NCBI GenBank assembly: GCA_001821295.1
Contig: MHSK01000002.1
Coordinates: forward strand, 1 to 41,434
DNA from: Candidatus Taylorbacteria bacterium RIFCSPLOWO2_12_FULL_43_20
GTDB taxonomy: Bacteria > Patescibacteriota > Minisyncoccia > Phycocordibacterales > HO2-43-120
DNA: 41,434 bases
Direction: 5' to 3'
This document shows, in pieces, positions 4,470 through 41,360 of the stretch. The position numbers were made by a program, and so were the translations under genes. Each line of letters starts with the position of its first letter. The first letter of the stretch is position 1. The notes beneath the pieces are model-generated. The model had not been told where the DNA came from. It saw nothing but the letters and a program-made list of their open reading frames with translations, and ran no database searches.

Positions 4470-4487
4470 AAGGATTTTTTTCTAGCA

Positions 4488-11012: not shown

Positions 11013-11175
11013 GACTTACGCATTTTCTGTCATTCCCGTGAAAACGGGAATCCAGCGTGCGTAGTGCGAATAAATGCCTTGGATTCCCGCCTCCCCCCCT
11101 TCGCTCTAAGAAGAGCTACGAGAGGGCGCAGCGCGAGAATGACATTGACCAGAACAAACTTTTTCGTAAGTCCTA
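11010..11175. repeat. MITE-like element, family 1, copy b
   Basis: Ends are TAGGACTTACGCA and TCGTAAGTCCTA, with an inner TCATTCCCGTGAAAACGGG/GAGAATGAC inverted pair. The left edge supplies the GH57 stop codon and the right edge lies 16 bp before the next gene. Confidence 0.85.
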
Positions 11176-11191
11176 TTAATGATAAATCGTC

Positions 11192-26811: not shown

Positions 26812-27765
26812 TTATGAGTAAATAGAAAGACCAACTAATTTTCTAACGGACTCCATCTTTCTGGCCGCTCTTTCTCTCGCTTTTGACCCTCCAATTTTTA
26901 ACACCTCTAGTAACTTTTCCGGCTTAGCGGCGAGCTCGGCTCGTCTCGCGCCGAGCGGAGAGACAAAATCCACAATATCATTAAACAGGGCTTCTTTAAG
27001 AATTTTATATTTACCCCTATTTTCCTCGTACAAAGCAGTCAATGATTTCTCGTCTTTGAATAATCTGTGGATGGCATAAACATTTTTAGGTATATCTGAG
27101 ACAGAATCCGTAACTATACTCATAACAATTTTCTGGATTTTATCCGGGTCTGCGAATAGAGGAATTGTGTTGTCGTGGCTTTTGGACATTTTTTCGCCAT
27201 CTGTACCTGGTACCACTGCAACATTCTTTTCTATCAACACTTCCGGTAATTTGAATATTTTTCCGTATGTTCTATTGAACTTCTCTGCTGTGTCTCTGGC
27301 GTATTCTACATGCTGTTTCTGATCTTGCCCGACCGGTACCATATCCGCGTCTTGGATCAAAATATCAGCGGCCATGAGGATCGGGTAATCAAAAGTGCCA
27401 ACATTGACCTCTCTGCCCTTGGCCATCGCGTCTTTATAGGCATGAGCTCTTTCCAGATACGGCATTGTGGTAAGGGTGTTGAATATCCAAGAGAGCTCCG
27501 TCACTTCGGGTACGTCAGACTGTTTGAATAAAATAACTTTCTCAGGATCAAGTCCGATGGCAAGATAGTCTGTCGCTACGTCTATGACGTTTGAAGCGAG
27601 TTCTTTTGGATCATGCAGAGTCGTCAGAGCGTGGAGATCCGCGATGAAAATATAACATTCATACTCATCCTGTAAATCCACGAATTGCTTCATAGCCCCG
27701 AAATAATTGCCGATATGAGGTCGTCCTGTCGGCTTGACTCCGGAAAGTAATATTTTCTTAGACAT
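26812..27765 (-). CDS. trpS: Tryptophanyl-tRNA synthetase, housekeeping type
   Basis: A 317-residue class I synthetase of normal bacterial length. SGVKPTGRPHIGN holds the HIGH-type motif, and GEKMSKSHDN is the canonical KMSKS loop. The Cys set of the iron-sulfur subtype is absent. FIADLHALTTLHDP near 40 and PVGQDQKQHVEYARD near 145 are TrpRS hallmarks. The extended -10 box TGATATAAT (27772-27780) ends 6 nt before the ATG, a leaderless arrangement like other host genes. Two further TrpRS genes lie 8-11 kb away and are of a different subtype, so this one is probably the resident enzyme. Confidence 0.96.
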   Translation of the reverse strand: MSKKILLSGVKPTGRPHIGNYFGAMKQFVDLQDEYECYIFIADLHALTTLHDPKELASNVIDVATDYLAIGLDPEKVILFKQSDVPEVTELSWIFNTLTTMPYLERAHAYKDAMAKGREVNVGTFDYPILMAADILIQDADMVPVGQDQKQHVEYARDTAEKFNRTYGKIFKLPEVLIEKNVAVVPGTDGEKMSKSHDNTIPLFADPDKIQKIVMSIVTDSVSDIPKNVYAIHRLFKDEKSLTALYEENRGKYKILKEALFNDIVDFVSPLGARRAELAAKPEKLLEVLKIGGSKARERAARKMESVRKLVGLSIYS

Positions 27766-28346: not shown

Positions 28347-29900
28347 TTACAAAAGATGAGATTGGCCTGATGTTTCGTCGCCTGTCTTACTCCACGACGA
28401 TAATAATTTGGCTAAAAATTCCTGCGGGTGCTTGTCTGGAGCGACAAAGTCGGCGAGCACAAGGCCGACAACAACAAGTATATGATACTCCTCCTGCTTA
28501 GTGGCCAGCGACTTTTTCCAAACGGGATGAAGAGTATTGATTGACACCGTGTCATCTATCATTCGTCCGAGCGCTTCTGGCATATCAGACAGTTCTTCCA
28601 GAGCCAATATTAGCCCTTTTTTACTCTTTGCCGGCGAATTTTGGGATTTTTGCTTTTTGTCAAAACTATCGGAGGTTTGGGGTTCGTTTGGATCTTTTTT
28701 TGATATCTTTGGCTCGTTGTCAGAGACTGATAGTGATTCTCCGCGTGAGTTCTTTAATCCGCCCTCTCCTGCTTTCCCTCGGCGAGCTCCAAACAAACTT
28801 TCAAGCTCGGGAAATTCGGTTGACATTGTTTCCAGCGCTGTTTCAATCTGGCGTTCGAGAGGCCTGATGCTTTTAGCTGTATCTCGTTCCTTATCCGCGT
28901 ATTCACCCAGAGATCTAAGTACCGGCAACACGCCCTGTTGGACGGCTTTACGAAGGCGGTAGAATTTTTTCAAGTGAGACGCGTCAGTCAGGAAATCACT
29001 CTTATTGGTAGTTAGTAATTCTGAAAGCATCGGGATTTCTACAACTCCGCACAATGCTTCAGCGCTCTTTGGCATAATGCCCAGCCATTCCCAGCCAGTC
29101 TTTATGACCTTGCCGTAAGTAGAAACAGAAAGTCCGGAAGCGATAGCGTGTTCATTGGGCGAACGCCCTGCCAAGCGTGCCAGAAAACCCTGCTCAAGTA
29201 CTTTCTTTGTGAGGAAACCCGCGCCTATCGGTCTATGGCCCTTTCCCAAGTAAATATGAAAACCGTTGTCTACTCGCTGTTCAGTATGTGGCAGTTCAAG
29301 CAACTTGCCGTTTATAAAAAATTCAATGCCCTTCTTATAGACGAATTTCAGAATTTCCTTAGTTAGAAATTCATTCAGCAGAGGATAATAATGTTTAATG
29401 ATAGTATCGCGAACGAAATCCTCCCTCATGAGATGAGATTCAGCGTCGGTAAAATACATAGAAACACTTGTACCTCTCGGATACGGCACAGCTCCCACTG
29501 CAGGCACGAATTTCCAAGGAGCTCTGTACTGATTTGTCAACCTCCACTCTGTCGCGGCTCGCGACCCTCTGCCTCCCTTGCTTTCGGTGACCACTTTATC
29601 CGCGAGAAGTAGCGAAAGTTTTGCCCCCACACCGGCAAAACCGATGCCTTCCCCCCTCACCTTTTTGGATGCCGCGATATTGTGATAATCTCTGAGAGCA
29701 GTCCTCTTCATTCCAACTCCATTGTCTACGCAACGCATGAAATACTCAGCACTATTGACAGTAAATTCAATGCGTGTTGCTCTCGAATCCAAGGCGTTGG
29801 CTATGAGCTCCGTAAGAATGACCTCTTCAAGAGGCGAGCTATAGCTATCACGCATATCCTCCAAAAGATGCTTTAAATTGACACGCGTCTCATTTTGCAT
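28347..29900 (-). CDS. GHKL (Hsp90/MutL-type) ATPase domain protein, unknown role
   Basis: A 517-residue cytoplasmic protein. The N-terminal Bergerat fold is clear: ELIANALDS (N-box, about 31), DNGVGM (G1, about 59) and GEGIGFAGVGAK (G2, about 84). There is no HisKA helix or receiver, so it is not a two-component kinase. The middle (about 180-340) resembles the transducer part of Hsp90/MORC-like ATPases; a Lys/Ser-rich linker (about 385-440) is probably disordered, and a helical C-terminal domain follows. Proteins of this layout occur in DNA-repair and defence contexts, but nothing here fixes the function. It appears monocistronic. Confidence 0.8.
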   Translation of the reverse strand: MQNETRVNLKHLLEDMRDSYSSPLEEVILTELIANALDSRATRIEFTVNSAEYFMRCVDNGVGMKRTALRDYHNIAASKKVRGEGIGFAGVGAKLSLLLADKVVTESKGGRGSRAATEWRLTNQYRAPWKFVPAVGAVPYPRGTSVSMYFTDAESHLMREDFVRDTIIKHYYPLLNEFLTKEILKFVYKKGIEFFINGKLLELPHTEQRVDNGFHIYLGKGHRPIGAGFLTKKVLEQGFLARLAGRSPNEHAIASGLSVSTYGKVIKTGWEWLGIMPKSAEALCGVVEIPMLSELLTTNKSDFLTDASHLKKFYRLRKAVQQGVLPVLRSLGEYADKERDTAKSIRPLERQIETALETMSTEFPELESLFGARRGKAGEGGLKNSRGESLSVSDNEPKISKKDPNEPQTSDSFDKKQKSQNSPAKSKKGLILALEELSDMPEALGRMIDDTVSINTLHPVWKKSLATKQEEYHILVVVGLVLADFVAPDKHPQEFLAKLLSSWSKTGDETSGQSHLL

Positions 29901-29941
29901 GGTATTTTGCGATTTGACACCATCATAGCACCGAATATCCT

Positions 29942-29987
29942 AAATCCACAACATGCTATAGTACATATTAACTTGTAACGGCACTAG
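29942..29987. repeat. Family-3 MITE fragment
   Basis: The right half of the family-3 element (ACATGCTATAGTACAT, then TTAACTTGTAACGGCACTAG) is present without a left end. Confidence 0.7.
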
Positions 29988-30097
29988 TCTACTGAATAAC
30001 GCCACCCAAAGTTATCCCCTCTTCCTCTTCTCACTTTACTCCTCTGTAATTATTTACGAAAAGGCTTAACTCATGTGGCCTTTTTATACTATAATAC

Positions 30098-30229
30098 GAA
30101 TTACGAAACTCTTTTCTCGGCAGGGCTTTTGCGGAACACGGGTATTTTTTTGCTAAAAAATCCCTATGCTCGCCCGTCGGCTTGCGCAATGTTCCGCAAA
30201 AGCCCTGCCTTCGACGAGTTTCGTAATTC
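30098..30229. repeat. MITE-like element, family 4, copy a
   Basis: The outer ends GAATTACGAAACTC and GAGTTTCGTAATTC are perfect inverted repeats. Inside, a 19-bp arm (GCAGGGCTTTTGCGGAACA) and its complement, and an inner GGGTATTTTTTT/AAAAAATCCC stem, give a nested hairpin. A direct copy lies at 37337-37470. Confidence 0.85.
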
Positions 30230-30269
30230 AAGGTATAATACTGATACAATGCGTATAATATAAAAAATA

Positions 30270-30833
30270 ATGAATATTGAAATAGAAATAAAAGTGAAAA
30301 TTGATGACATTGAAGGAGTTAGAAAGAAGGTCAATAATTTAGGCAAATTGATAAAATCTATAGATCAGATTGATGACTATTATATTCCATGCCATAGAGA
30401 TTTTTTTGCTGAAAAACCCCATCCAGTGGAATGGTTGAGAATAAGATCAAATCCGGATAAAACCATTTTTGAATATGATAGGTCTATAAACAAAAATGAG
30501 AATGGAATACAAGAATACGCGGAAGAGTATGAAAGTGAAATATCAAACCCCAACGAGTTTAAACAAATTTTAAAATTTCTAAACTTTAGACACGTTATCA
30601 CCGTTAATAAGCAAAGAGAATACTGGATGTGCGGCAATGTAGAAGTCGCGCTTGATCAAATTAAAGGACTCGGTAATTTTATTGAAGTGGAAGCAAAGGG
30701 AGATTTCAACACTGCGACAGAAGCAAGAAATACTTGTGTTCGCTTTTTAGAAAATCTGGGAATAAAAGACGTTGATAATATTCAAATCAATAATGGTTAC
30801 CCGCAATTAATTTTGAAAAATCTGGGAAAATAA
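30270..30833 (+). CDS. CYTH-domain protein (CyaB/ThTPase-like triphosphate-binding fold)
   Basis: A 187-residue protein of the CYTH family. The N-terminal ExExK signature is E4-I-E6-I-K8, and the alternating charged strands that line the triphosphate tunnel follow (WLRIRSN near 52, EYDRS near 65, EYESEI near 87, KQREYW near 112, DQIKGLGNFIEVEAKG near 127). Members hydrolyse or cyclise triphosphorylated substrates such as ATP, thiamine triphosphate or inorganic triphosphate; the substrate here is unknown. TATAAT lies 10 nt before the ATG, directly after a family-4 MITE. Confidence 0.88.
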   Translation: MNIEIEIKVKIDDIEGVRKKVNNLGKLIKSIDQIDDYYIPCHRDFFAEKPHPVEWLRIRSNPDKTIFEYDRSINKNENGIQEYAEEYESEISNPNEFKQILKFLNFRHVITVNKQREYWMCGNVEVALDQIKGLGNFIEVEAKGDFNTATEARNTCVRFLENLGIKDVDNIQINNGYPQLILKNLGK

Positions 30834-30985
30834 TGTTCCTCCAGATAGGGCTTTAGTCCCTATCCGAATGATGGAAGATGTTGATAACTTCCGTGCGTTC
30901 ACTGCGTGCATTTGATAAAATATCCCTATGAAATATTGGAAATCATGGATATCGGGTTTATGTAGTAAAAAGTAATTTAAATATC

Positions 30986-31546
30986 GTGGACATAGAAAAG
31001 TGGGTTGATGACCAGATAAATCAGCCCGAAAAACATCGAGCTAAAATGCCAAAAGAAATGAAAGTGAGAATTAGCTCGATTATATTTTCGGTATGCCTTT
31101 ATTTATCTTTTCATTTTCTACTCATTTTGGACAATGATTTAGAATTATTTTTCAAAATTCCATTTGTAATACTTGGCGCGGCTGTTTCAATTCTAATTGG
31201 TATTTTAATTAACAATTTATGGAACCGATATCCCTACTTTATTAAAGGCGGAGTCTATGGTGGTTACCTAGCTATAATGTTTATTCTTTTTGCATATTTA
31301 TGCATTTTTTTCTCTTATTTTAGTTACGACCAATATGCGGGGCTTGGATGTATTGCATTCTTTGCCTTTGGTCCCGCGTTTATTTCTGCCACGTTAATGG
31401 ATTTTATTCAGCCAATGTTCAATTATGATTGGATATATATAGAAGTTTATTCCGTAATTTATAGTATTCCACTATTTATTGTTATTGGAATAATAATAGG
31501 CCAAATAATAAAGATCTCTAATCATAAAAAAGAGCCCACAGTGTGA
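30986..31546 (+). CDS. Multi-pass membrane protein, unknown function
   Basis: A 186-residue protein from a GTG start. A charged cytoplasmic N-terminus (about 1-28) precedes four or five hydrophobic segments (about 32-48, 57-77, 90-110, 118-135, 155-178). No conserved polar motif suggests transport or catalysis. No Shine-Dalgarno site is visible. It is AT-rich like the neighbouring genes. The gap upstream (30834-30985) contains nothing recognisable. Confidence 0.6.
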   Translation: MDIEKWVDDQINQPEKHRAKMPKEMKVRISSIIFSVCLYLSFHFLLILDNDLELFFKIPFVILGAAVSILIGILINNLWNRYPYFIKGGVYGGYLAIMFILFAYLCIFFSYFSYDQYAGLGCIAFFAFGPAFISATLMDFIQPMFNYDWIYIEVYSVIYSIPLFIVIGIIIGQIIKISNHKKEPTV

Positions 31547-31618
31547 GCTCTGAAATGCTGCTGGTTTAAATATCAGAGCATTGTAGTCTTAGAAAGAACT
31601 AATTCACCGAAGGTGATG

Positions 31619-31759
31619 TCACTGACCCATAACACGGTAGAACATGTAAGCATCGGTGTTGTGATCCATGTATTGCACTGTACCGTTGGTATTGACGAGA
31701 ATCGCTTGAACCTGCCAATCAGTGAGATTGGGAGAGTTTTCAATGATGAGGAAATCGGC
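31619..31759 (-). pseudogene. C-terminal remnant of an exported beta-domain protein
   Basis: On the minus strand a 46-codon frame without a start codon reads FLIIENSPNLTDWQ, then AILVNTNGTVQYMDHN, then FYRVMGQ and a stop. The pattern NLTDW...MDHN...FYRV resembles the last strands of secreted beta-sandwich repeats common in large surface proteins. An in-frame stop sits just before it, so the 5' part is gone. It is most likely a gene remnant. Confidence 0.45.
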
Positions 31760-31787
31760 TTATCAAGGTTAAACCTTGATATAAAAC

Positions 31788-31827
31788 AAACACCCGAACG
31801 GCTTAGCCGTTCGGGTGTTTAAGTGTT
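31788..31827. terminator. Strong 15-bp hairpin, bidirectional terminator candidate
   Basis: AAACACCCGAACGGC and GCCGTTCGGGTGTTT form a perfect stem with a TTA loop. The A/T tails are short, so it may act in either direction or as a structural repeat. An 8-bp palindrome lies just before it (TCAAGGTT/AACCTTGA). Confidence 0.55.
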
Positions 31828-31916
31828 CAATGATTCTACAATGATCCGGTCCATTCCCTTATTCGTGAGAATTAGACAATGAGATGAGAACAACTGCTCG
31901 GAAAAAATATTCACAC

Positions 31917-32432
31917 TCACCTTACTTTAGCGTATACATAGACATCTTTATATTTACCGAACCTTTTTGCGTGTTTCTTCAGTACCCCCTCACGTTTGAA
32001 TCCCGCTCTTTCAATTACACGTTTTGAGCCGGGGTTATCAGTGTGAATATTTGCTGAAATTCGTATAATTTTTTTATCCTTAAACGCATGCTGAACAATA
32101 GCACGTACAACTTCCGTCATAATTCCCCTTCCCCAATATTTTTCGCCAAGCCAATATCCTATAACTCCACTATGTTCATTGTTACGTGTGATGCTAATAG
32201 CTCCAACGGCCAGATCATCAATCACAACTGCAAACGTCCTTTCGTCCATCTTTTTTGACAGATTTTTCTTGATCCACTTTTTTGCGTCAGCTATTTTATA
32301 TGGATAAGGAAATCTATCCGTAAGATTCCACGCGATATTCTTATTGTTTGCGTTTCTTGTTATGGATTCAGCATCTGTCAGTTTCAATGGCCTTAATAGA
32401 GCACGCTTCAACTTAATTACAGGTATTTTCAT
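31917..32432 (-). CDS. GNAT-family N-acetyltransferase (RimJ/RimL-like)
   Basis: A 171-residue acetyltransferase. LRPLKLTDAESITR opens the fold, IGYWLGEKYWGRGIMTEVVRA (about 92-112) contains the acetyl-CoA loop (RGI..E), and the later IHTDNPGSKRVIERAGFKREGVL carries the conserved Asn-Ser/Arg region. This is the RimJ/RimL-like branch, which acetylates protein N-termini or small amines. It lies 50 bp after the membrane kinase on the same strand and could share its transcript. The substrate is unknown. Confidence 0.88.
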   Translation of the reverse strand: MKIPVIKLKRALLRPLKLTDAESITRNANNKNIAWNLTDRFPYPYKIADAKKWIKKNLSKKMDERTFAVVIDDLAVGAISITRNNEHSGVIGYWLGEKYWGRGIMTEVVRAIVQHAFKDKKIIRISANIHTDNPGSKRVIERAGFKREGVLKKHAKRFGKYKDVYVYAKVR

Positions 32433-32482
32433 ATCAATGGCACGGTTGCAACACTCCGAATAACATTAAAAGTGTTGACTAA

Positions 32483-34096
32483 TTAAATTATCTTCGTCGG
32501 CAGCTCAACGTAGAATGTTGAACCGTGGCCGGGGCCTTCAGACTCGGCCCAAATACGGCCTTTGTGAGCTTCCACAATTTCGCGGGCGAAATAGAGTCCG
32601 TAACCAGTAGAGGAGACGTTCACTTTGACTGAATTCGTGCCTCTGCCGCCTTCTGTAAAGAGTCTCGGTTTATCTTCTTCAGAAATACCAACACCGGTGT
32701 CTTTTATTGTCAATAGAATGTTATCATTCTTTCTGCTGAGTCTTACCGTCAACCCGCCTGTTTGGGTATATTTGATTGAATTGTCAATAATGTTTCTGAT
32801 TGCATGTTTAGCAACCTGCTCCTTATCTCCTATCATCATGTAATCCGCACCCTCTTCCATATTCGTCTCAATTGTTAGATTTTTTTGCTCAGCACTGGGT
32901 CTAAGTTCGTTTACGACATCTACAAGCGCATCCTTAAAATTAAACTGCCTGGCAATAAATTTCAACGTTCCCTTCTTTATATTTGCTGAATTCAGAATAT
33001 TCATAACGGTCTCCACACCCTCCCTGTTATCAATAAGCGCTTTTTTTGCGATCCGTTTCAGATCAGGGTTGACCTCACCATAATCACCATCAACGATCAC
33101 GGAGAATACGCTTTGGCTCTTTGTCAAATAGCCCTTAACCTGATGGCTTATGAAGTGCACCAACCCCTCCAACCTCTCATTCAATTGCTGAATTTCTTCT
33201 TTTTGTTTGACCTCTCTGGTGACTGAACGGACAAGCAATATTCCAAACAACACTAGGAATATAAACGTAATACTTATTATGATTCTCAAAACACTAAAAT
33301 TTGTTATGAAGAGCAGAGAGAACACCATCATCCATAATGCAAACACAAGCGCATTTGCTCCGATGATTCGGAAATGAAATACGCCAAATCTTACAATAAG
33401 ATAAGTCAAAAGTCCTAAGAAAATCACCATTCCAATCGGTCCCACAAGGTTGATTTCGTATACTTTGGTCAGCTCCCCCCAAAAATTTGATAGGAAGAAA
33501 ATTCCAAGAAAACAAAACATTCCTAAACCAACCAAAAATTCTTTTAATTTAATCTTCCTATGGATTAGTTTTTTGGTTATATAGTATACAACGAAGAAAA
33601 GAGTTATGACTTCAAAAGTATATATGAAATACCACAAATAACCTATAATGCCACCACAATCATACTCGGTCAGATAAAATTGCGAAATGTTAAATTTTGT
33701 GGATGAAAAAATTACGACAGTGAGAGCTATTCCACTTAAGATTACTTTATAAATAAACTGCAAATCACTATTCTCAACGAAAACATATAGAAAATATATT
33801 GAAAAAAGAAAAATAGCTATTTCAAAAATGCCTGTAATTTGCCATGAGAACATTTGTATGAGTGGATCAACTGAAGCCCATTCAACTATTATATTTAGAA
33901 TCCATAAAGAAAAAAAGAGAGAGATAAAAAATAGTAATCTACCTAACAATGAAAACTTGTCTTTGAATAATACAAAAAGTCCAAATATTATTGATAAGAC
34001 GGCAATGGGTATATATGCATAATACAATAATGCTGGGGCATCAGGTGAATAGAAAAAATATAAAGGTGAACTCCAAGGACAAAGTAATTGTGTCAT
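32483..34096 (-). CDS. Membrane histidine kinase with multi-span N-terminal sensor
   Basis: A 537-residue sensor kinase. The first 290 residues hold about nine hydrophobic segments (7TM-type input domain plus two more), then a short coiled coil (REVKQKEEIQQLNERL). The HisKA helix has phospho-acceptor His318 in FISHQVKGYL, and the HATPase domain shows the N-box NIIDNSIKYT, DTGVGIS and GYGLYFARE. No receiver or regulator gene is adjacent. Its start overlaps the SET-domain gene by 4 bases (ATGA), so the two are translationally coupled; a kinase coupled to a SET protein is unusual. Confidence 0.92.
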   Translation of the reverse strand: MTQLLCPWSSPLYFFYSPDAPALLYYAYIPIAVLSIIFGLFVLFKDKFSLLGRLLFFISLFFSLWILNIIVEWASVDPLIQMFSWQITGIFEIAIFLFSIYFLYVFVENSDLQFIYKVILSGIALTVVIFSSTKFNISQFYLTEYDCGGIIGYLWYFIYTFEVITLFFVVYYITKKLIHRKIKLKEFLVGLGMFCFLGIFFLSNFWGELTKVYEINLVGPIGMVIFLGLLTYLIVRFGVFHFRIIGANALVFALWMMVFSLLFITNFSVLRIIISITFIFLVLFGILLVRSVTREVKQKEEIQQLNERLEGLVHFISHQVKGYLTKSQSVFSVIVDGDYGEVNPDLKRIAKKALIDNREGVETVMNILNSANIKKGTLKFIARQFNFKDALVDVVNELRPSAEQKNLTIETNMEEGADYMMIGDKEQVAKHAIRNIIDNSIKYTQTGGLTVRLSRKNDNILLTIKDTGVGISEEDKPRLFTEGGRGTNSVKVNVSSTGYGLYFAREIVEAHKGRIWAESEGPGHGSTFYVELPTKII

Positions 34097-34620
34097 TTTC
34101 GCAAAGCGTTAAGCATATAATCTATATTTTTTTTTCTAAACTCAGAATTTTTCCAATCATTACCAGTAATAATTTTTCTACATATTGGGCTTCTGCATTT
34201 ACACATCATTTTAAATTTTGGATTAGTTTCTGCTAAGCCATAATCCCATAATAATTCCTCTCCTTTTCTAATATTTCTTTTTGCTATAAAATCATCATGC
34301 TCACCGAATCCTACATTATAATCACATCCATGGTTCATATTCCATGGTATAGATAAATAATTTAAATTATCAATGATAGTAACCCCATTAATTTCTCCTA
34401 AACCATAATCCATTATTTTTTTTCGTGTAATATCGTCAAATTGGTTAACTTGGTTCCAATTAAATTTGACTACTTTGGTTTCAAAGATTTCAGCCTTAGC
34501 AATGACCGAATTTTTAGAGATATCACACACAGCAAAAACCCCAATTTCTTCTTTAATAATAGTAGAGGGTTTAATTTCAATAGTGACTTTGGGAAAATTT
34601 TGAATATCTCTGGCAAACAT
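34093..34620 (-). CDS. SET-domain protein (putative lysine methyltransferase)
   Basis: A 175-residue SET protein from the ATG at 34620; a longer TTG-started frame (to 34680) overlaps the upstream microprotein and is less likely. The signature segments are NMNHGCDYNVGF (the NHxC motif), GEELLWDYG and a post-SET cysteine cluster (CKCRSPIC) that may bind zinc. SET enzymes use S-adenosylmethionine to methylate lysines; the bacterial target is unknown. It sits between a 46-residue membrane protein and a membrane histidine kinase in one operon. Confidence 0.85.
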   Translation of the reverse strand: MFARDIQNFPKVTIEIKPSTIIKEEIGVFAVCDISKNSVIAKAEIFETKVVKFNWNQVNQFDDITRKKIMDYGLGEINGVTIIDNLNYLSIPWNMNHGCDYNVGFGEHDDFIAKRNIRKGEELLWDYGLAETNPKFKMMCKCRSPICRKIITGNDWKNSEFRKKNIDYMLNALRK

Positions 34621-34636
34621 AATTCTAACTTTAATA

Positions 34637-34777
34637 TTATTCTGTAACGTCTCCCCCGGGATCTTTATCTGTAATTTCAAAATCCTGAAGTATAACAGTT
34701 TTGTAAAATGTATAACCGACTGACACCACTGTGAGAATGATAATTATCCAAAGTAGAATTGTAGATTTCTTGTCCAT
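34637..34777 (-). CDS. 46-residue single-pass membrane microprotein
   Basis: A short gene starting MDKKSTILLWIIIIL and ending DPGGDVTE. One transmembrane helix (about 7-24) is followed by an acidic tail. The extended -10 TGGTATAAT (34792-34800) lies 14 nt before the ATG, and its stop is 16 nt before the SET start, so it is the first gene of the microprotein-SET-kinase operon. No family is known to me. The clear start, promoter and placement support it as a real gene. Confidence 0.65.
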   Translation of the reverse strand: MDKKSTILLWIIIILTVVSVGYTFYKTVILQDFEITDKDPGGDVTE

Positions 34778-34791
34778 ATTATATTAATAAG

Positions 34792-34800
34792 ATTATACCA
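34792..34800 (-). promoter_or_regulatory. Extended -10 box of the microprotein-SET-kinase operon
   Basis: TGGTATAAT on the minus strand, 14 nt before the ATG at 34777; the leader would be about 7 nt. Confidence 0.5.
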
Positions 34801-34973
34801 CTTTGTGGCATAAGTAAAGATAAAATCAGTCTTGTTTTTATTAAATTGTGGATAACATTTTTAGCTATTTTGAAATGATTTATTTCTTTCTCAAATAAGG
34901 CAAAAAACATTGTTTTAAAAAATTTACAGTTAAACTGTTTTCAGTAATTGATGTTTCGCAATATATAAGGCCT

Positions 34974-35174
34974 ATGAACTTTTTTTTGCCAGAAGACTTC
35001 GAGAAACTGAACCAAGAAATTACAGGTCTCTGCGATCGAATAAAGCAAATCGGAAAAGAAATGGGTGAAAGTTGTCGAGAAGGCGCGGAAACTTTTCATG
35101 ACAATTTCGCTTATGAGGATGGTGAACGACAACAGGCAATGCTTTCTACCAGACTGCGTAAATTTATTGAATAA
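34974..35174 (+). CDS. GreA-like coiled-coil mini-protein (66 aa)
   Basis: A 66-residue helical protein. EKLNQEITGLCDRIKQIG and the later HDNFAYEDGERQQAMLSTRL resemble the two helices of the GreA/GreB N-terminal coiled coil, with acidic residues at the tip (AETFHDNFAYED). GreA uses this hairpin to reach through the RNA polymerase channel; here the C-terminal polymerase-binding domain is missing. TATATA (34962-34967) ends 6 nt before the ATG (leaderless), and a terminator follows, so it is a complete gene. The GreA link is inferred from pattern only. Confidence 0.6.
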   Translation: MNFFLPEDFEKLNQEITGLCDRIKQIGKEMGESCREGAETFHDNFAYEDGERQQAMLSTRLRKFIE

Positions 35175-35181
35175 ACCCTCA

Positions 35182-35206
35182 AACAAGGCTATCCGCCTTG
35201 TTTTTT
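35182..35206 (+). terminator. Rho-independent terminator of the mini-protein gene
   Basis: AACAAGGC (35182-35189) pairs with GCCTTGTT (35195-35202), followed by T-rich sequence. The convergent Nudix gene ends inside this hairpin. Confidence 0.8.
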
Positions 35207-35646
35207 ATTTCTTATTAATGAATAAATTGCAAAAGCTTTTAATATAGCTTTTGCAGTAGAATCATAAATATTATATTTCTCAATTTGCGACATGTTTATC
35301 CACTTGAAGTCTTTATGCTCTTTGCTTATCTTAATTTCAGTATTTGCATCCATGGTTTCCACTATAAAATTAATCTGGGTTGAGTCTCGAATTTCATCTG
35401 TCTTATTAATTTGATAATCAAAAACAGAAATTGGAACAAGTACCTTGACTCTCAATCCGACTTCTTCTAAAAACTCGCGTTTTAAAGCTTCTTTAGTAGT
35501 TTCCAGAGGTTCTCTTTTGCCACTTGGAAGCTCCCACATACCCGAGAAAACATCCTCATCATCATTTCGTTGTATAATTAAAGCCTTGTCATTGTTAATT
35601 AAAACTCCTCCAACAATGATTTTTTGAACGATTTTTTTTCAGGCAT
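35189..35646 (-). pseudogene. Nudix hydrolase, reading frame broken at an A8 tract
   Basis: The intact part (35189-35539) has the full Nudix box GKREPLETTKEALKREFLEEVG for Mg-dependent hydrolysis of nucleoside diphosphate derivatives (the box is split here over about 23 residues: G, E, then REFLEEVG). In the same frame, codons upstream still read as a Nudix N-terminus (IIVGGVLINNDKALIIQ) but have no start codon. An ATG at 35646 (MPEKK) would join this frame perfectly if the run of eight A at 35632-35639 had one more base. It is either a pseudogene, a sequencing error or a slippage-dependent gene. Confidence 0.7.
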
Positions 35647-35852: not shown

Positions 35853-37217
35853 TTAATGCGAGAGAATGCCAAGTCTTTCTCTGACCTCCCACAAGGTATG
35901 CTGGATGATTTCTCGAGCCTTCAGGCCGCCATAGTGCAGAACTTCCTCAACATACTTTTGCTTTTCCGAAAGTTCAGCTCTTCGTTCACGAAACGGCTGA
36001 AGCAGGGCATCGATCTCTCGAGAAAGTTGCAACTTGCATTCCCTGCAGCCGCGTGATCCCTCTCTGCACTCGGTCTCCACTATCTTGATCTCCTCAGGCC
36101 GCTTTTCCAGCAGAGCTTCGTACATAGGATATACTGATACGCACTGACTAGGATTGCCAGGCGCACTCCTAGTTGATCTACGCTTGTCAGTAATTCCGTA
36201 TCTCAGATATTTTTCAGAGATCTGGTCGAGCGTATCGCTAAGCAATACGCTGGAATCCTCATTTGATTTGCCCATTTTCCCACCGGCTAACCCGGGGACG
36301 ACCTTGTTCAAGCTCATTTTAGGAGTAACAAAGGTAGTGCCGAACTGCCGGTTGAACTTATCCGCTAAGGACATGGCTAATTCTACATTTGGCGCCTGAT
36401 CGTAGCCAACCGGGACCAAAGTCGCTTTCGGACCGAGGATATCTGCAGCCATTAATAGAGGATAGTGCAGGTGGCCCATATACATGGTGCTATGTTTATC
36501 TTTTGCCAGATCTTTAACAGTTGGCAGGTGCTCTAACTGAAGTTTGGGTTGCACCATTGACAGATATAAAGCCAGTTCAGCAATTTCTGGAACGCTGGAT
36601 TGGCTGTAGATTACAGACCTCTCTGGATTTAATCCGGCAGCTAGATAATCGGTCGCGATTGCCAAGCTGTTCAGAGCCACTTTTCGAGGATCTCGAAGTG
36701 TCGTGAGTGTGTGCCAATCTGCTATGAAGTACATGCAAAAATTATCGCCATGCTCATACTCCACGAACTGTTGAACAGCTCCAAACAAATTTCCCAAATG
36801 CAGTTCTCCAATTGCGCGTATTCCAGAAAGGACGATTTCCCGAGATGCTCTGTCTCTTGAAGCGAGATATTCAACTGTCGTGTTTGTCACGAAATCGGCC
36901 GAACATCTATCGCAAGATATTACACTGAACTTTTCTGTCGCAGAGGCGCAGCTTTTGCAAGCCGGACAGTACATCAGAAGAGAACGGCACGCGGGACATC
37001 TTCTTATTACATCAGCGACCTCGTAGATGCCAGATGTGTTATTGTTGCATTTTGTGCAATGCAATACCAGGGATTCATTTGATATTGCATTTGGCTTCAA
37101 TGGAGCGGCATAGCTACTCCATCCAATAGGGCGATATGCCCCGACAGATTTCTCATGAGCAATCAGAGCTCGTATTTGGTCGGGATTTGTAACTGGTTGT
37201 ATGTTTTGTGTTCTCAT
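35853..37217 (-). CDS. Tryptophanyl-tRNA synthetase paralog with two zinc ribbons and a [4Fe-4S]-type Cys motif
   Basis: About 454 residues. The N-terminal 125 carry two zinc-ribbon-like sets: C54/C57 with C74/C77, and C84/C87 with C102/C105. The TrpRS core starts near 128: ELHLGN (HIGH type), FIADWHTLTTL, and GGKMGKSNED (KMSKS type with Gly). C359-x24-C384-x6-C391-x2-C394 matches the pattern of the [4Fe-4S] TrpRS known from Thermotoga (C-x22-C-x6-C-x2-C). The frame is open from a TTG at 37256, but the ATG at 37217 has an AAGGTG Shine-Dalgarno site. It is divergent from the second iron-sulfur TrpRS. Charging of tRNA-Trp is likely; the ribbon function is unknown. Confidence 0.88.
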   Translation of the reverse strand: MRTQNIQPVTNPDQIRALIAHEKSVGAYRPIGWSSYAAPLKPNAISNESLVLHCTKCNNNTSGIYEVADVIRRCPACRSLLMYCPACKSCASATEKFSVISCDRCSADFVTNTTVEYLASRDRASREIVLSGIRAIGELHLGNLFGAVQQFVEYEHGDNFCMYFIADWHTLTTLRDPRKVALNSLAIATDYLAAGLNPERSVIYSQSSVPEIAELALYLSMVQPKLQLEHLPTVKDLAKDKHSTMYMGHLHYPLLMAADILGPKATLVPVGYDQAPNVELAMSLADKFNRQFGTTFVTPKMSLNKVVPGLAGGKMGKSNEDSSVLLSDTLDQISEKYLRYGITDKRRSTRSAPGNPSQCVSVYPMYEALLEKRPEEIKIVETECREGSRGCRECKLQLSREIDALLQPFRERRAELSEKQKYVEEVLHYGGLKAREIIQHTLWEVRERLGILSH

Positions 37218-37336
37218 CTTTTCAAACACCTTTCTAAGATAAACCTTGTCATACAATATAATTTAAATCAAGTCACTAGTGTCCGATTAAAATCGTAAAC
37301 ACAACCTTGGTTCATCATAACGACTGTAAAACACTA

Positions 37337-37470
37337 TGAATTACGAAACTCTTTTCTCGGCAGGGCTTTTGCGGAACACGGGTATTTTTTTGCTAAAAAA
37401 TCCCTATGCTCAGCCCGTCGGCTTGCGCAATGTTCCGCAAAAGCCCTGCCTTCGACGAGTTTTGTAATTC
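37337..37470. repeat. MITE-like element, family 4, copy b
   Basis: A near-identical direct copy of 30098-30229, with one extra base in the centre. It lies between the two divergent iron-sulfur TrpRS genes. Confidence 0.85.
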
Positions 37471-37498
37471 AAGGTAAAACAAGCTTATTCTTAGCCGG

Positions 37499-37654
37499 AT
37501 TTATCCGGACAGCATCCTAATCCGTAAGAAAAGGGCGATTTTGAGACTTGGTTTCCAACTCTCAAATTTGTGGTAGAGCAATCAATCTGAAACAAAAGAC
37601 CTCAATGGCTCAAAAAAGACGCAATTAAGCCACATTTATACTGTCCGGATTAAT
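37499..37654. repeat. MITE-like element with TCCGGACAG ends
   Basis: ATTTATCCGGACAGCAT on the left and ATACTGTCCGGATTAAT on the right are imperfect inverted repeats 155 bp apart. A third ACCGGACAGCA end lies at 37690. An inner TTGAGA/TCTCAA hairpin is present. No transposase is encoded. Confidence 0.55.
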
Positions 37655-37722
37655 CATCGCCGAGTTTTTCTCAAGTGGTCAAAAGTTTTACCGGACAGCA
37701 ATGGGGTTACATGCGGGCGGGC

Positions 37723-37751
37723 TTGCATAGAAATCAAAGTTGTGGTATGAA
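37723..37751 (+). promoter_or_regulatory. Promoter of the TrpRS/tRNA-Trp operon
   Basis: TTGCAT (37723-37728), a 17-nt spacer and an extended -10 TGGTATGAA (to 37751). The leader would be about 60 nt and carries an AAGGAG Shine-Dalgarno site (37806-37811), unlike the leaderless resident genes. Confidence 0.5.
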
Positions 37752-37817
37752 TCAAGGCAGAAGAAGACTAGAGTAGGTTGCTCGAAATAGTTCATTCACA
37801 AACAAAAGGAGATAAAT

Positions 37818-38810
37818 ATGGAGACAGTCTTATCAGGAATCCGTGCAACCGGTCGGTTGCACTTCGGCAACTTTCTGGGCGCGGTGCAGAACTTCGTGAA
37901 GTTCCAACAGCCAGGCAATACCTGCCTCTACTTCATCGCCGATTGGCACACACTCACGACGCTCGACGATCCCGAAGAGCTTCGTGGCAATTTGGTTGAG
38001 ATCGTAAAGGATTACATTGCCGCGGGTCTCGACCCTGAGCAATCAATCATTTACGCTCAATCAAGCGTCCCGGAAATCTCCGAGCTGTGCTTGTATCTTT
38101 CCATGATACAGCCCCTCGGTGAGCTGGAACGAGTCCCGACCTTCAAGGACCTGGTTCGCAAGAATCCGGACAACGTGAATCTCGGACTCGTGACTTACCC
38201 AGTGCTTATGGCGGCCGACATTCTTGGCCCTAAAGCGACACTCGTGCCGGTTGGCGAAGATCAGGTGCCGAATGTTGAAATGGCGCGCAATATCGCGGGC
38301 AAGTTCAACAAACGTTTCGGGAACACATTTGTCGTTCCCGAGATGATGGCGCAGATGATCAAAGTACCGGGCCTAGACGGCGCAAAGATGGGAAAGTCGG
38401 AGGCGGATAACGCCATTGACATCAATGCACCCATTGAAGCAATCCGTGAACGGTATCTGAAAAAAGGAATCACGGACCGAGAGCGTCTGCGAGTTACCGA
38501 CCCGGGCGATCCCTACAATCGTTGCCAATCTGTGTACCCGGTACATGAATTGGTAACGGACGGCGAGATAGAAACTCGCGAGATTGCCAACCTGTGCATC
38601 TCTGCCCAGATTGGCTGTGCCGCCTGCAAACACCGTCTAGTAGACGGTATCGCCAAGATTCTGGAGCCCTTTCAAGAAAGGCGAGCTCGGCTTGCTAATC
38701 AAAATGAGTACGTTAAAGACGTACTACATGAGGGCGGCAAAAAGGCTCGCACCAGAATCAAGGAAACCACCGAACAGGTTAGAGACAGAGTGGGTATCGT
38801 TATCTATTAA
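37818..38810 (+). CDS. Tryptophanyl-tRNA synthetase paralog of the [4Fe-4S] subtype
   Basis: A 330-residue TrpRS. SGIRATGRLHFGN holds the HIGH-type motif, FIADWHTLTTL is conserved, and GAKMGKSEAD is the KMSKS loop with Gly at the second position. C236-x23-C260-x6-C267-x2-C270 fits the [4Fe-4S] TrpRS pattern, where the cluster lies near the anticodon-binding surface. The DNA is visibly GC-richer than resident genes, and the gene has a strong Shine-Dalgarno site. A tRNA-Trp gene follows 23 bp after the stop with a shared terminator, so the enzyme and its substrate tRNA appear co-transcribed. This suggests acquisition as a unit. Confidence 0.94.
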   Translation: METVLSGIRATGRLHFGNFLGAVQNFVKFQQPGNTCLYFIADWHTLTTLDDPEELRGNLVEIVKDYIAAGLDPEQSIIYAQSSVPEISELCLYLSMIQPLGELERVPTFKDLVRKNPDNVNLGLVTYPVLMAADILGPKATLVPVGEDQVPNVEMARNIAGKFNKRFGNTFVVPEMMAQMIKVPGLDGAKMGKSEADNAIDINAPIEAIRERYLKKGITDRERLRVTDPGDPYNRCQSVYPVHELVTDGEIETREIANLCISAQIGCAACKHRLVDGIAKILEPFQERRARLANQNEYVKDVLHEGGKKARTRIKETTEQVRDRVGIVIY

Positions 38811-38833
38811 GTCTGTCTCTCAAACAAGAATGG

Positions 38834-38909
38834 ACCGGTGTAGCTCAACTGGTAGAGCAGCGGTCTCCAAAACCGATGGTTGCAGGTTCGAATCCTGTCA
38901 CCGGTGCCA
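38834..38909 (+). tRNA. tRNA-Trp (anticodon CCA)
   Basis: A complete cloverleaf: acceptor ACCGGTG/CACCGGT, anticodon loop CTCCAAA, T loop TTCGAAT, discriminator G73 and an encoded CCA end. A1-U72 and G73 are normal for bacterial tRNA-Trp. The first anticodon-stem pair is a G-A mismatch. It lies between the iron-sulfur TrpRS gene and a terminator, so it is probably processed from the trpS message. Confidence 0.96.
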
Positions 38910-38916
38910 ACCTTGT

Positions 38917-38948
38917 GGACGTGTTGCCAAGCAACACGTCCTTTTTTT
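38917..38948 (+). terminator. Rho-independent terminator of the TrpRS/tRNA-Trp operon
   Basis: GGACGTGTTG (38917-38926) pairs perfectly with CAACACGTCC (38932-38941), followed by seven T. Confidence 0.88.
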
Positions 38949-38956
38949 ATAAAAAT

Positions 38957-38986
38957 TTGACAGTATATATATGTCCATGATAGTAT
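38957..38986 (+). promoter_or_regulatory. Promoter of the T-box-controlled operon
   Basis: TTGACA (38957-38962), an 18-nt spacer and TAGTAT (38981-38986). Transcription should begin near 38993, giving a leader of about 350 nt. TATGAGTTT/AAACTCATA inverted repeats (38984-38992 and 39024-39032) overlap the -10. Confidence 0.65.
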
Positions 38987-38992
38987 GAGTTT

Positions 38993-39287
38993 ACTCTCAC
39001 GAGAGTGTTCATTTCAGATTATAAAACTCATATCTAGTTCCTTTGATTACTCAAAGGGTTGGGGCTGGATCGTTTCGTCATATTATATATATGGCAAAAC
39101 AGAGTGGTTTCTGCGTTAGTGGAAACTCGGCATTCCTCCGTAATCATAGGAAAACCGAAATCGGTCGAAAGGCATAGAGTCGGTATGAGTCCTGCGATTT
39201 AATAATTACAGGAAAAATAAGGTGGTACCGCGGAAATCCGCCCTTACGAGACAAACTTTTTGTTTGTATCGCAAGGGCGGTTTTTTG
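38993..39287 (+). promoter_or_regulatory. T-box riboswitch (tRNA-sensing transcription attenuator)
   Basis: The T-box core AATAAGGTGGTACCGCGG lies at 39217-39234. The antiterminator folds exactly: TAAGG (39218-39222) with CCTTA (39242-39246), a 7-base TGGTACC bulge that would bind the tRNA acceptor end, and GCGG with CCGC. The competing terminator pairs 39238-39256 with 39262-39280 (17 of 19) before TTTTTT. A stem III (CCTG...CAGG, 39191-39212) precedes it. A long stem I is likely: 39068-39077 pairs with 39156-39166, with a terminal hairpin at about 39107-39126. The specifier is not resolved: GGC at 39171 sits in a GAAAGGCA context, while UGG triplets occur elsewhere. The bulge base U would fit A73 or wobble with G73, the base in tRNA-Trp. 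Confidence 0.9.
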
Positions 39288-39345
39288 TTTATTGTGAACA
39301 AAAAAATGCGCATAGTTCTTTTACAACATAAAATAGGAGGTAATC

Positions 39346-39894
39346 ATGTCGCATCTAATTCTTACAGTCTGTAAGGGTAATATTCATCGTTCTGTTCTTG
39401 CCGAGGCTTGTATTAGTAAGTACTTGCAAGAGCTTGGCTTAGAAGGCAGCTTTAAAGTTGCCTCTCGTGGCTTACAAGGTACTTGCGGAACCGCAATGCC
39501 GAAGTTTCCAAACATGAGGTGCTATTCTCTCGAATATGGATATACGGAGCCGATTTTACAGGAATTGGAAATTGAAATTCCTGAAACCAAAATCGCGACA
39601 CCCATCGATGAAGGTATTGTCCAGAAGGCATCCTTAATTCTTGCCATGAATAGCGAGGTATTGTGTGGATTTGCCAACTGCCTCGTAAATCAATTTCCGA
39701 AATTCGGTTTCAAGATGAGACTGTTTTCGGAAATGGCAGGTGATATTCGCGATGTACCAGACTGTGCAGGAAAGACCGATACTGAAATGTATCGGCAAGT
39801 CAATCTAACCATTCACGCAACCGCAAAAAATGGAATTCAGAAAATGTGCCAACTGGCAGAGCTTCTGAATCCTCAAACCTCAAAAGGAGAATGA
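39346..39894 (+). CDS. Low-molecular-weight protein tyrosine phosphatase-like protein
   Basis: A 182-residue cytoplasmic protein. The P-loop C9-K-G-N-I-H-R15-S matches CX5R(S/T) of the LMW-PTP/arsenate-reductase fold, LILAMNSEVL near 103 matches the LILAMD segment, and RDVPDCAGKTD near 145 holds the candidate general-acid Asp in the DVPDP position. It should be able to hydrolyse or bind phosphate esters. Several extra cysteines are present. It is the first gene after the T-box, has a strong AGGAGG Shine-Dalgarno site, and ends 1 bp before the TrpD-like gene, so the two work together. The substrate may be a small metabolite rather than a protein. Confidence 0.85.
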   Translation: MSHLILTVCKGNIHRSVLAEACISKYLQELGLEGSFKVASRGLQGTCGTAMPKFPNMRCYSLEYGYTEPILQELEIEIPETKIATPIDEGIVQKASLILAMNSEVLCGFANCLVNQFPKFGFKMRLFSEMAGDIRDVPDCAGKTDTEMYRQVNLTIHATAKNGIQKMCQLAELLNPQTSKGE

Positions 39895-39895
39895 A

Positions 39896-41032
39896 ATGGA
39901 CATCAAATCTGTACTCAAACTGAACGCCTATCGGAACATTCCGCTGTGGTATGAACAAGCCTATGAGTTTGGTCTTTACACGCTTGCGGGATGTAAAGGC
40001 GATCAAACTGCAATGATGGAAAGTGTGATTGCTTTGTCGGCACTTCACAACAATGCCCTCTATCATCATCAAGGTGATGGCAAGGCAACTCCACATTCTG
40101 CCGCTGAGCAGATTGCTGGGATTTGTGCTGCCGTCTTTAACGAAGATATCGCCAAATCTCAATTTGGATTCGTCCGACCTGATGTTCCAGTCGCGATGGA
40201 TAATTGCGGCATGGGTGGCGATATGATTACCACCGCCAATGTGTCTACTTTGTCTGCCTTCATTGCGGCGACGGCTGGTATTCCAATGTGCAAACATGGG
40301 TCACCAGCCAATGCTGACAAAGGCAAACACGGTAGCTCGGACTTCGTGGGGCTGTGCGGGATTAATTGTTTTGCTCACAAGCTAACGATTGAGACTTCAG
40401 TGGAGCGGTTCAATTTTGGCTACACTGAGGCGCTGGATACCCGCTATAAGCATATCCATATGCAGACGCACAAGTTCGTGAAGCTTCCACACATGAACGA
40501 CATTATCGGACCAATCACTAATCCGGTTGATCCAAAAATAATGTCACGCCGGGTGTTGGGGGTGAATCACCTTGTGCCCACTCGAGTGGTGGCTGAGGTC
40601 TACCATATTCTTAATCAGATAGGAGTGACGCAAATGGACCACTTGCTGGTGGTTCGTGGCTTTATCTCCGATGAATCTGATGAGGGTATGGATGAGCTAT
40701 CCATCTGCTCTGGCGGAACGGAAGTGTCGGAACTTTGTGATGGTGAAATCACAACTTACCGTCTCTATGCCAAAGACTTTGGTGTAAGCGAAGTTTCGGC
40801 GACAGACGTCTCGCCTCCGATGGGTGTTTCCAAGGGCGACTTCTCCATGCAGATCTTGCGTGGAGAACGAAATGGGTCAGTGTTGGACATGATCTTCGCC
40901 AATGCGGCCCTGTTGTTCTACCTGAATGACCCCGCCCTTTCTTGGATGAAAGCTCATCAGGCTGCTCGCGATACTTTCGCTACTGGTAAAGTACCAAAAA
41001 CGAAAGACAATTTGGCTGGGTTTTGTCGATAG
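39896..41032 (+). CDS. TrpD-fold (anthranilate phosphoribosyltransferase-like) enzyme with altered acceptor site
   Basis: A 378-residue protein of the TrpD/nucleoside phosphorylase II fold. The PRPP site is intact: G105-M-G-G-D109, NVST (115-118), KHG (133-135), GSSD (146-149), GPITNP (205-210) and the Mg-binding D266/E267 in GMDEL. Residues that hold anthranilate in TrpD differ: the Asn after KHG is Ser136, and the Arg before the GPxxNP segment is absent (L-P-H instead). So it probably moves a phosphoribosyl group to or from another acceptor. An AGGAG site precedes the ATG, 1 bp after the phosphatase-like gene. No other trp biosynthesis gene is in the window. Confidence 0.82.
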   Translation: MDIKSVLKLNAYRNIPLWYEQAYEFGLYTLAGCKGDQTAMMESVIALSALHNNALYHHQGDGKATPHSAAEQIAGICAAVFNEDIAKSQFGFVRPDVPVAMDNCGMGGDMITTANVSTLSAFIAATAGIPMCKHGSPANADKGKHGSSDFVGLCGINCFAHKLTIETSVERFNFGYTEALDTRYKHIHMQTHKFVKLPHMNDIIGPITNPVDPKIMSRRVLGVNHLVPTRVVAEVYHILNQIGVTQMDHLLVVRGFISDESDEGMDELSICSGGTEVSELCDGEITTYRLYAKDFGVSEVSATDVSPPMGVSKGDFSMQILRGERNGSVLDMIFANAALLFYLNDPALSWMKAHQAARDTFATGKVPKTKDNLAGFCR

Positions 41033-41048: not shown

Positions 41049-41086
41049 GTGCGGGGCGTTCAAGGTGAACGTCCCGCACTTTTTAT
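41049..41086 (+). terminator. Rho-independent terminator of the T-box operon
   Basis: GTGCGGGGCGTTCA (41049-41062) pairs with TGAACGTCCCGCAC (41066-41079), with one G-U pair, followed by TTTTT. Confidence 0.9.
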
Positions 41087-41135: not shown

Positions 41136-41360
41136 ATGAAATTATTTATTTTTGACTTAGATGGAACTCTCATAGACGATATGGAGTTTTACAAAAAAGC
41201 TTATTCAGAAAATTTAGATATGTTGGTGCGTAAACGCGCTGGAAACAAAGGAACAAAGATGTTAAATTTTCTCAGAAATTCTGATAAATACAGAGGTGAA
41301 TTAGCCTTGGTTGCTCTTGGAATTCCATTTTCTGATTGGTGTTCAAGCTATGGAACATAG
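41136..41360 (+). pseudogene. HAD-superfamily hydrolase, N-terminal fragment cut by a repeat
   Basis: The 74-residue frame begins KLFIFDLDGTLIDD, the classic HAD motif I with nucleophile Asp and DxDGT, and continues as a cap helix region to SDWC. At 41340 the sequence switches into a 30-bp repeat also found at 26585-26614, which brings the TAG stop. HAD enzymes are usually above 200 residues, and motifs II-IV are missing, so this is a truncated gene. Confidence 0.75.

Follow-up and report, generated by a model that had tools for sequence, protein, structure and literature searches.

Fe-S-type tryptophanyl-tRNA synthetases, tRNA-Trp and a Trp T-box leader in a recurrent gene cluster of Patescibacteria that resembles an undescribed tryptophan-linked pathway

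Organization of the island

The window analyzed here is the complete contig MHSK01000002.1 (41,434 nt; hereafter C2) of Candidatus Taylorbacteria bacterium RIFCSPLOWO2_12_FULL_43_20 (GCA_001821295.1), a 1.008-Mb genome with a bin completeness of 100% and a contamination of 0.3%. Near its 3' end lies an island of two extra tryptophanyl-tRNA synthetase (TrpRS) genes of the iron-sulfur (Fe-S) type, a tRNA-Trp gene, a T-box leader and two enzyme genes. Sequence comparison indicates that this gene set is recurrent and more than a duplication, and that it looks like an undescribed tryptophan-linked pathway. A preliminary description of the window had reported a normal TrpRS and two divergent extra TrpRS genes beside a tRNA-Trp, a T-box and two enzymes; the TrpRS coordinates were confirmed and the other elements are all present, the enzymes being a low-molecular-weight (LMW) phosphatase-like and a TrpD-like protein. 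What it missed is that contig C38 of this genome (read as locus L036) carries more of the recurrent cluster. The main features are as follows (positions in the window, unless C38 is named):

26812..27765, minus strand: housekeeping TrpRS, 317 aa, KMSKS, without Fe-S cysteines
35853..37256, minus strand: island TrpRS 'long', 467 aa, translated from TTG; catalytic part of the Fe-S/KMGKS type, preceded by a Cys-rich N-terminal extension
36852..37256, minus strand: Cys-rich N-terminal extension of the long TrpRS, zinc-ribbon-like, ~135 aa, boundary approximate
37818..38810, plus strand: island TrpRS 'short', 330 aa, Fe-S/KMGKS clade
38834..38909, plus strand: tRNA-Trp(CCA) 3' of the short TrpRS; A1-U72, G73, CCA encoded
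39031..39286, plus strand: leader of the Trp T-box type; Stem I short; F-box, antiterminator and terminator present
39060..39062, plus strand: UGG (Trp) specifier, predicted in the 3' bulge of Stem I
39221..39232, plus strand: T-box sequence GGTGGTACCGCG, with UGGU bulge; G:U wobble with G73 possible
39346..39894, plus strand: LMW phosphatase-like (LMWPc) protein, 182 aa, CX5R
39896..41032, plus strand: TrpD-like phosphoribosyltransferase (TrpD/Glycos_transf_3), 378 aa; phosphoribosyl pyrophosphate (PRPP) motifs kept, anthranilate residues replaced
C38 (L036), 2215-2703: YbaK/ProX-type aminoacyl-tRNA editing protein, within the cluster
C38 (L036), 3863-5008: chorismate-mutase/methyltransferase fusion (CM_MT), with homologues in other loci

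Apart from the editing protein and CM_MT, contig C38 holds an EamA transporter, an unknown 318-aa protein, an AstE-like deacylase, BtpA, a PfkB kinase, an APH-like kinase and two HAD proteins. The island has a GC content of 46.6%, compared with 41.5% in the first 35.5 kb of the contig, and is probably acquired and of non-housekeeping origin. Contig C2 stops shortly 3' of the island, and C38 is tied to it solely through the common bin; an end sequence shared by the two contigs was sought and none was found, so that joining them by overlap fails. Such a position at a contig end could point to a chimeric contig or a binning error. However, the TrpRS, tRNA, T-box and TrpD-like genes are contiguous in the window, the bin is virtually uncontaminated, and the neighbourhood, when sought in other genomes, was found again in independent assemblies. 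A binning artefact of this single genome is therefore unlikely, and an assembly or bin error as the source of the island is hardly credible.

Recurrence in other genomes

The TrpD-like protein was used as query in one scan of 84,980 genomes, which returned 19 loci and, together with the window, gives 20 TrpD-like loci. The 19 belong mostly to Patescibacteria, with one genome labelled Micavibrio and one Nanohalarchaeota. The distribution is patchy: in a phylum sample the gene was present in 1 of 380 genomes, namely the present one. A TrpRS gene lies within ~10 kb of the TrpD-like gene in 13/20 loci (12 plus the window), and at least two TrpRS genes are carried by 10/19 TrpD-like genomes vs 3/98 relatives (Fisher p = 2e-7, uncorrected for relatedness). 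The nearby TrpRSs that are not of the Fe-S type are Chlamydia-like (L016, L019, L028), of the Candidate Phyla Radiation (CPR) type (L022) or archaeal-like, judged by low identity (L034); as they come from several lineages, the link of the TrpD-like gene seems to be to TrpRS as such. Full-length BtpA is encoded near the TrpD-like gene in 15 loci, a cut copy is found in L020, and the BtpA of the present genome is on C38. CM_MT, PfkB, HAD, APH-like kinase, LMW phosphatase, M20/AstE deacylase, a pyridoxal phosphate (PLP)-dependent decarboxylase, EamA and tRNA-Trp also recur around it. The association of TrpRS with the TrpD-like gene is thus beyond chance, and the island belongs to a more extensive cluster that recurs in other genomes.

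The patchy distribution, the raised GC content and the several TrpRS types would also suit a spare TrpRS/tRNA-Trp pair carried as selfish or stress-protective cargo (e.g., against tRNA-cleaving toxins or redox damage), with loosely linked enzymes. We regard this as very improbable, since the linkage to the T-box, TrpD-like, BtpA and CM_MT genes repeats across distant genomes. Phage or plasmid cargo was rejected: viral contigs held no relative, and the phage and plasmid matches were ordinary TrpD-type genes with 27-31% identity.

Among 397 genomes of the order, six carry CM_MT, and in four of these (G060, G082, G696, G755) it adjoins an island-type TrpRS. The present genome has them on separate contigs, and G036 has CM_MT without an adjacent TrpRS. 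Loci L090 and L101 have no TrpD-like gene in the stretch read, where a T-box, a GCS2-type ligase and an AstE-type deacylase are found instead. In L017, L018, L021 and L024, the PLP decarboxylase (MfnA-like) replaces CM_MT beside TrpRS or tRNA-Trp. As for the two labels outside Patescibacteria, the metagenome-assembled genome (MAG) labelled Micavibrio (L030) combines TrpD-like, BtpA and T-box, by lateral transfer or misbinning, while in the Nanohalarchaeota MAG (L034, 7320-11880) the archaeal-like TrpRS is ~2 kb from the TrpD-like gene.

Tryptophanyl-tRNA synthetases

Twelve island-type TrpRSs were compared: both copies of the window, those of L017, L020, L021, L024, L027, L031, L032, L090 and L091, and one from the L018 genome (on another contig). 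The pattern C-x(21-24)-C-x6-C-x2-C in the anticodon-binding domain is present in all 12 and in none of 21 further TrpRSs, which come from these and neighbouring genomes; the same holds for KMGKS (12/12 vs 0/21). The iron-sulfur Cys pattern claimed in the preliminary description was thus recovered in both extra copies, as C-x(22-24)-C-x6-C-x2-C, and is absent from the normal one. Conservation among close homologues, whose lack it had named as a refutation, is complete. By this pattern the two extra TrpRSs are of the [4Fe-4S] type, with cluster binding putative; the Cys motif is also the basis on which redox sensing might be suggested as a role of the island. Residues binding tryptophan and ATP are retained, including the active-site His in 12/12, and therefore the island TrpRSs look active. 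A changed active-site His is what we take to be the mark of an indolmycin-resistant TrpRS, and no such change was seen in these 12.

In the TrpRS tree the island-type enzymes form a single, distinct clade (support 93/86). The short window copy, which has 71-74% identity with the homologues of L027, L090 and L101, groups with L027 and L090 beside L091. The long copy falls in that subclade as well, as a diverged member. The best solved relative of the short copy is the [4Fe-4S] TrpRS of Thermotoga maritima (TM0492, PDB 2g36; E-value = 3e-73), which has the four Cys at the same alignment columns as the island clade and the catalytic residues kept. However, it bears KMSKS instead of KMGKS, a difference from this type enzyme that need not define the subfamily, and it is placed beside a Chlamydia-like group (93/87). 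The tree including the Thermotoga enzyme, as the preliminary description had suggested, unites the island TrpRSs, with T. maritima apparently outside their clade. The housekeeping TrpRS of the window clusters with the same-genus TrpRS; the nearest same-genus genome compared has a single TrpRS, of the housekeeping type, and an island-type TrpRS was found in 2/98 relatives. In organisms with multiple TrpRSs, only one copy has been reported to carry the Fe-S motif (2010 paper, PMC2954223), whereas the present genome has two copies of the Fe-S type.

The two island TrpRS genes are divergently oriented. The N-terminal extension of the long copy has no Pfam match; its homologue in L091 is a separate 119-aa open reading frame just upstream of the Fe-S TrpRS (40% identity, E-value = 1e-5). 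In L091 a lone HisI-like phosphoribosyl-AMP cyclohydrolase (10807-11211) also adjoins the Fe-S TrpRS.

tRNA-Trp and T-box leader

The other tRNA-Trp of the genome, on contig C14, differs in sequence and has no encoded CCA. A tRNA-Trp is present within the locus in the window, L018, L020, L024, L031, L032, L091 and L101. Extra TrpRS and tRNA-Trp genes have been described in CPR/DPANN genomes as TrpRS-A/ORF1/tRNA-Trp(A73) operons, which are thought to be tied to tryptophan availability and whose TrpRS-A2 is predicted to bind [4Fe-4S] (Mukai 2017, PMC5370408). The island resembles them in combining an extra TrpRS with a tRNA-Trp in a CPR genome, but those operons have an archaeal-type TrpRS, an A73 tRNA and ORF1, while the island has a bacterial-type TrpRS (by best matches) and a G73 tRNA; no ORF1 search was made.

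The T-box leader of the window matches Rfam RF00230 with 36.7 bits (E-value = 1.4e-5), below the gathering score of 93, and RF00230 gave no match in L018, L020, L021 and L024; leaders in other loci were located by searching T-box and F-box sequences. A leader precedes the TrpD-like operon in 13/20 loci, and leaders also adjoin CM_MT/TrpRS in L090, L091 and L101. The UGG specifier (within UGGG) is invariant in the 15 leaders aligned. A 6-sequence fold puts UGGG in the 3' bulge of a short Stem I, with compensatory changes in 30 of 57 pairs, and a 15-sequence fold has them in 28 of 41 consensus pairs; they fall in Stem II, the F-box hairpin and the terminator. The latter fold missed Stem I, owing to its variable length and to truncated 5' ends in several leaders. 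A wobble pairing of the UGGU bulge with G73 has been reported for Trp T-boxes (PMC7778990), and the bulge and tRNA of the window would pair likewise. From the sequence and covariation of these 15 leaders, the identification as a Trp T-box is well supported. It is like known Trp T-boxes (RF00230; TBDB, PMC7778990) in the UGG specifier, F-box, T-box sequence, antiterminator and terminator, and differs in its short Stem I and its score under the Rfam cut-off. Additionally, leaders of the island type would control a TrpD-like or GCS2-type operon, while the known ones control tryptophan biosynthesis or transport genes.

Enzymes of the cluster

The TrpD-like protein shares with TrpD the family and the PRPP/Mg motifs: G-x-GGD, NxST and K are kept in 20/20 proteins, and DE in all 19 readable rows. 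Unlike TrpD, it has the Asn of KHGN replaced by Ser and the Arg of RT-F-N replaced by Leu/Val/Met-Pro-His in 20/20, both being residues that we take to bind anthranilate; it also lies outside any trp operon, and the window protein scores under the NCBIfam trpD cut-off (155.4 bits vs 199.05). Given these replacements and the kept PRPP motifs, the enzyme probably uses another phosphoribose acceptor or runs in reverse. Homologues of the LMW phosphatase-like protein are found in L017, L019, L020 and L028, and in L033 it is in one frame with the TrpD-like protein.

The CM_2 domain of CM_MT scores 52.5 bits (Pfam cut-off 27), and R28, K39, E52, S84 and Q88, which we assume to be the active-site residues of E. 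coli-type chorismate mutases, are invariant (n = 7). Chorismate synthase and trpB above cut-off were each found in 0/20 genomes, with control genomes positive. Canonical tryptophan synthesis was rejected accordingly, and by gene content the organism seems unable to make tryptophan. In the structure model the chorismate mutase part has low confidence; the near folds of the modelled methyltransferase domain are general small-molecule methyltransferases, among them the natural-product enzymes RebM, AtmM and TleD. A carboxy-S-adenosylmethionine (CmoA-like) role is unsupported, as no CmoA family or structure is among the matches listed. By fold comparison BtpA is a TIM barrel of the phosphate type, with KDPG aldolase, TrpA, TrpF and MfnB as near structures. 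Two unrelated deacylase families occur: AstE/AspA, with zinc residues kept (L036, L090, L101, L102), and M20 (L016, L017, L020, L028). The EamA transporter, on C38 in this genome, is fused to the LMW phosphatase in L028. A search of the open-access literature on BtpA/SgcQ, the island cluster and CPR T-boxes returned nothing relevant.

The dedicated TrpRS, the tRNA-Trp and the YbaK-type editing protein lie among metabolic genes, and some loci have a GCS2-type carboxylate-amine ligase (L090, L101) or GNAT-like proteins. The Fe-S TrpRS and extra tRNA-Trp could therefore supply Trp-tRNA to a cluster enzyme for non-ribosomal chemistry, a side reaction already raised in the preliminary description. 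We consider it quite unlikely: the proteins scanned gave no conserved aminoacyl-tRNA transferase or cyclodipeptide synthase match, and GCS2 and GNAT are limited to few loci, which leaves the idea with no enzyme conserved across them.

Resistance to a TrpRS inhibitor, another role suggested earlier, is possible for the island. In its fuller form, the main rival to the interpretation proposed below, the cluster would make the inhibitor itself (a nucleoside- or amino-acid-like Trp analogue), the divergent Fe-S/KMGKS TrpRSs, accompanied by their own tRNA-Trp, would be its resistant target, and the T-box would sense blocked charging. The phosphoribosyl-transfer, methyltransferase, kinase, phosphatase, transporter and tRNA-editing genes, the natural-product relatives among the modelled methyltransferase folds, and the change from KMSKS to KMGKS exclusive to the island clade are consistent with it. 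The active-site His and other residues of the tryptophan pocket are nevertheless unchanged, no recognisable natural-product core (e.g., nonribosomal peptide or polyketide synthase) was noticed among the loci read, and the window T-box precedes the enzyme operon and not a TrpRS; we judge self-protection rather unlikely. A precedent exists in Streptomyces, where an indolmycin producer retains a resistant auxiliary TrpRS, likewise beside a housekeeping one (PMC6804068), whereas the island TrpRSs are of the Fe-S type and accompany a tRNA-Trp and a metabolic cluster.

Proposed role of the cluster

The interpretation that we tentatively prefer, with confidence somewhat short of even, is that the island belongs to a mobile regulon responding to tryptophan scarcity in Trp-auxotrophic Patescibacteria, and that its operon would most likely supply tryptophan or a Trp-like compound. 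It is the best reading because a Trp T-box stands before the operon, extra TrpRS and tRNA-Trp genes accompany it, and the bacteria that carry it are apparently Trp auxotrophs. The excess of TrpRS genes in TrpD-like genomes, the two deacylase families, the EamA transporter and the BtpA fold also speak for it. When tryptophan runs out, uncharged tRNA-Trp would accumulate and contact the short-Stem-I T-box, presumed to work like others, via the UGG specifier and the UGGN bulge, favouring the antiterminator and switching on the TrpD-like operon (in the window, the LMW phosphatase-like and TrpD-like genes). Together with the partners on C38 (BtpA barrel, PfkB-like and APH-like kinases, HAD phosphatases, deacylase, EamA transporter and CM_MT), it would convert an imported aromatic precursor or conjugate to tryptophan or a Trp-like compound by phosphoribosyl and deacylation chemistry, while the auxiliary TrpRSs and extra tRNA-Trp would sustain charging under scarcity. 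Among the functions put forward in the preliminary description, tryptophan stress fits best, given the UGG specifier in every aligned leader and the genomes without trpB.

Several points weigh against a tryptophan-scarcity regulon. No cluster enzyme is known to yield tryptophan as end product, and trpB was not found; a simple salvage route could do without a phosphoribosyltransferase, a pair of kinases and multiple phosphatases. The window's TrpRS genes themselves lack a T-box, and the chorismate mutase active site is kept in genomes that are unable to produce chorismate. Uniform thrift of tryptophan across the encoded proteins was also rejected: its content is 0.37% in TrpD-like and 0.3% in TrpRS proteins (background ~1%), but the evidence is not uniform, since the housekeeping TrpRS is equally Trp-poor and CM_MT and BtpA are not low.

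On a broader formulation, for which we see the case as evenly poised, Patescibacteria would have an undescribed pathway coupled to tRNA-Trp via the Fe-S/KMGKS TrpRS, tRNA-Trp and T-box. There, a TrpD-derived phosphoribosyltransferase with a new acceptor, the BtpA barrel and CM_MT would make a new Trp-related metabolite or a TrpRS inhibitor. Patescibacteria are regarded as having minimal metabolism; nonetheless, distant members share this patchy cluster with an apparent sensor of tRNA-Trp charging, duplicate TrpRS and tRNA-Trp genes, and aromatic and phosphoribosyl enzymes without feeding pathways. Its product could account for the way in which Trp-auxotrophic epibionts deal with, or take advantage of, the tryptophan of a host. 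Furthermore, two TrpRS types and two tRNA-Trp types per cell offer a setting to probe the role of the iron-sulfur cluster in TrpRS.

Additional features of the window

37359..37450, no strand: perfect inverted repeat of 20 nt between the divergent TrpRS genes
38917..38941, plus strand: terminator-like stem after tRNA-Trp
38957..38986, plus strand: promoter-like site for the T-box transcript, 10/12 matches; such sites are no commoner in the region than in shuffles
41049..41079, plus strand: terminator-like stem after the TrpD-like gene
41136..41360, plus strand: truncated HAD gene, 74 aa, 50% identity to the N-terminus of HAD1 on C38

A second, imperfect inverted repeat (ATCCGGACAG type) is located at 37498-37655 in the same TrpRS intergenic region. 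Upstream of the island, positions 28347-35539 form a partly AT-rich accessory stretch with genes for HATPase, CYTH, SET-domain and NUDIX proteins.

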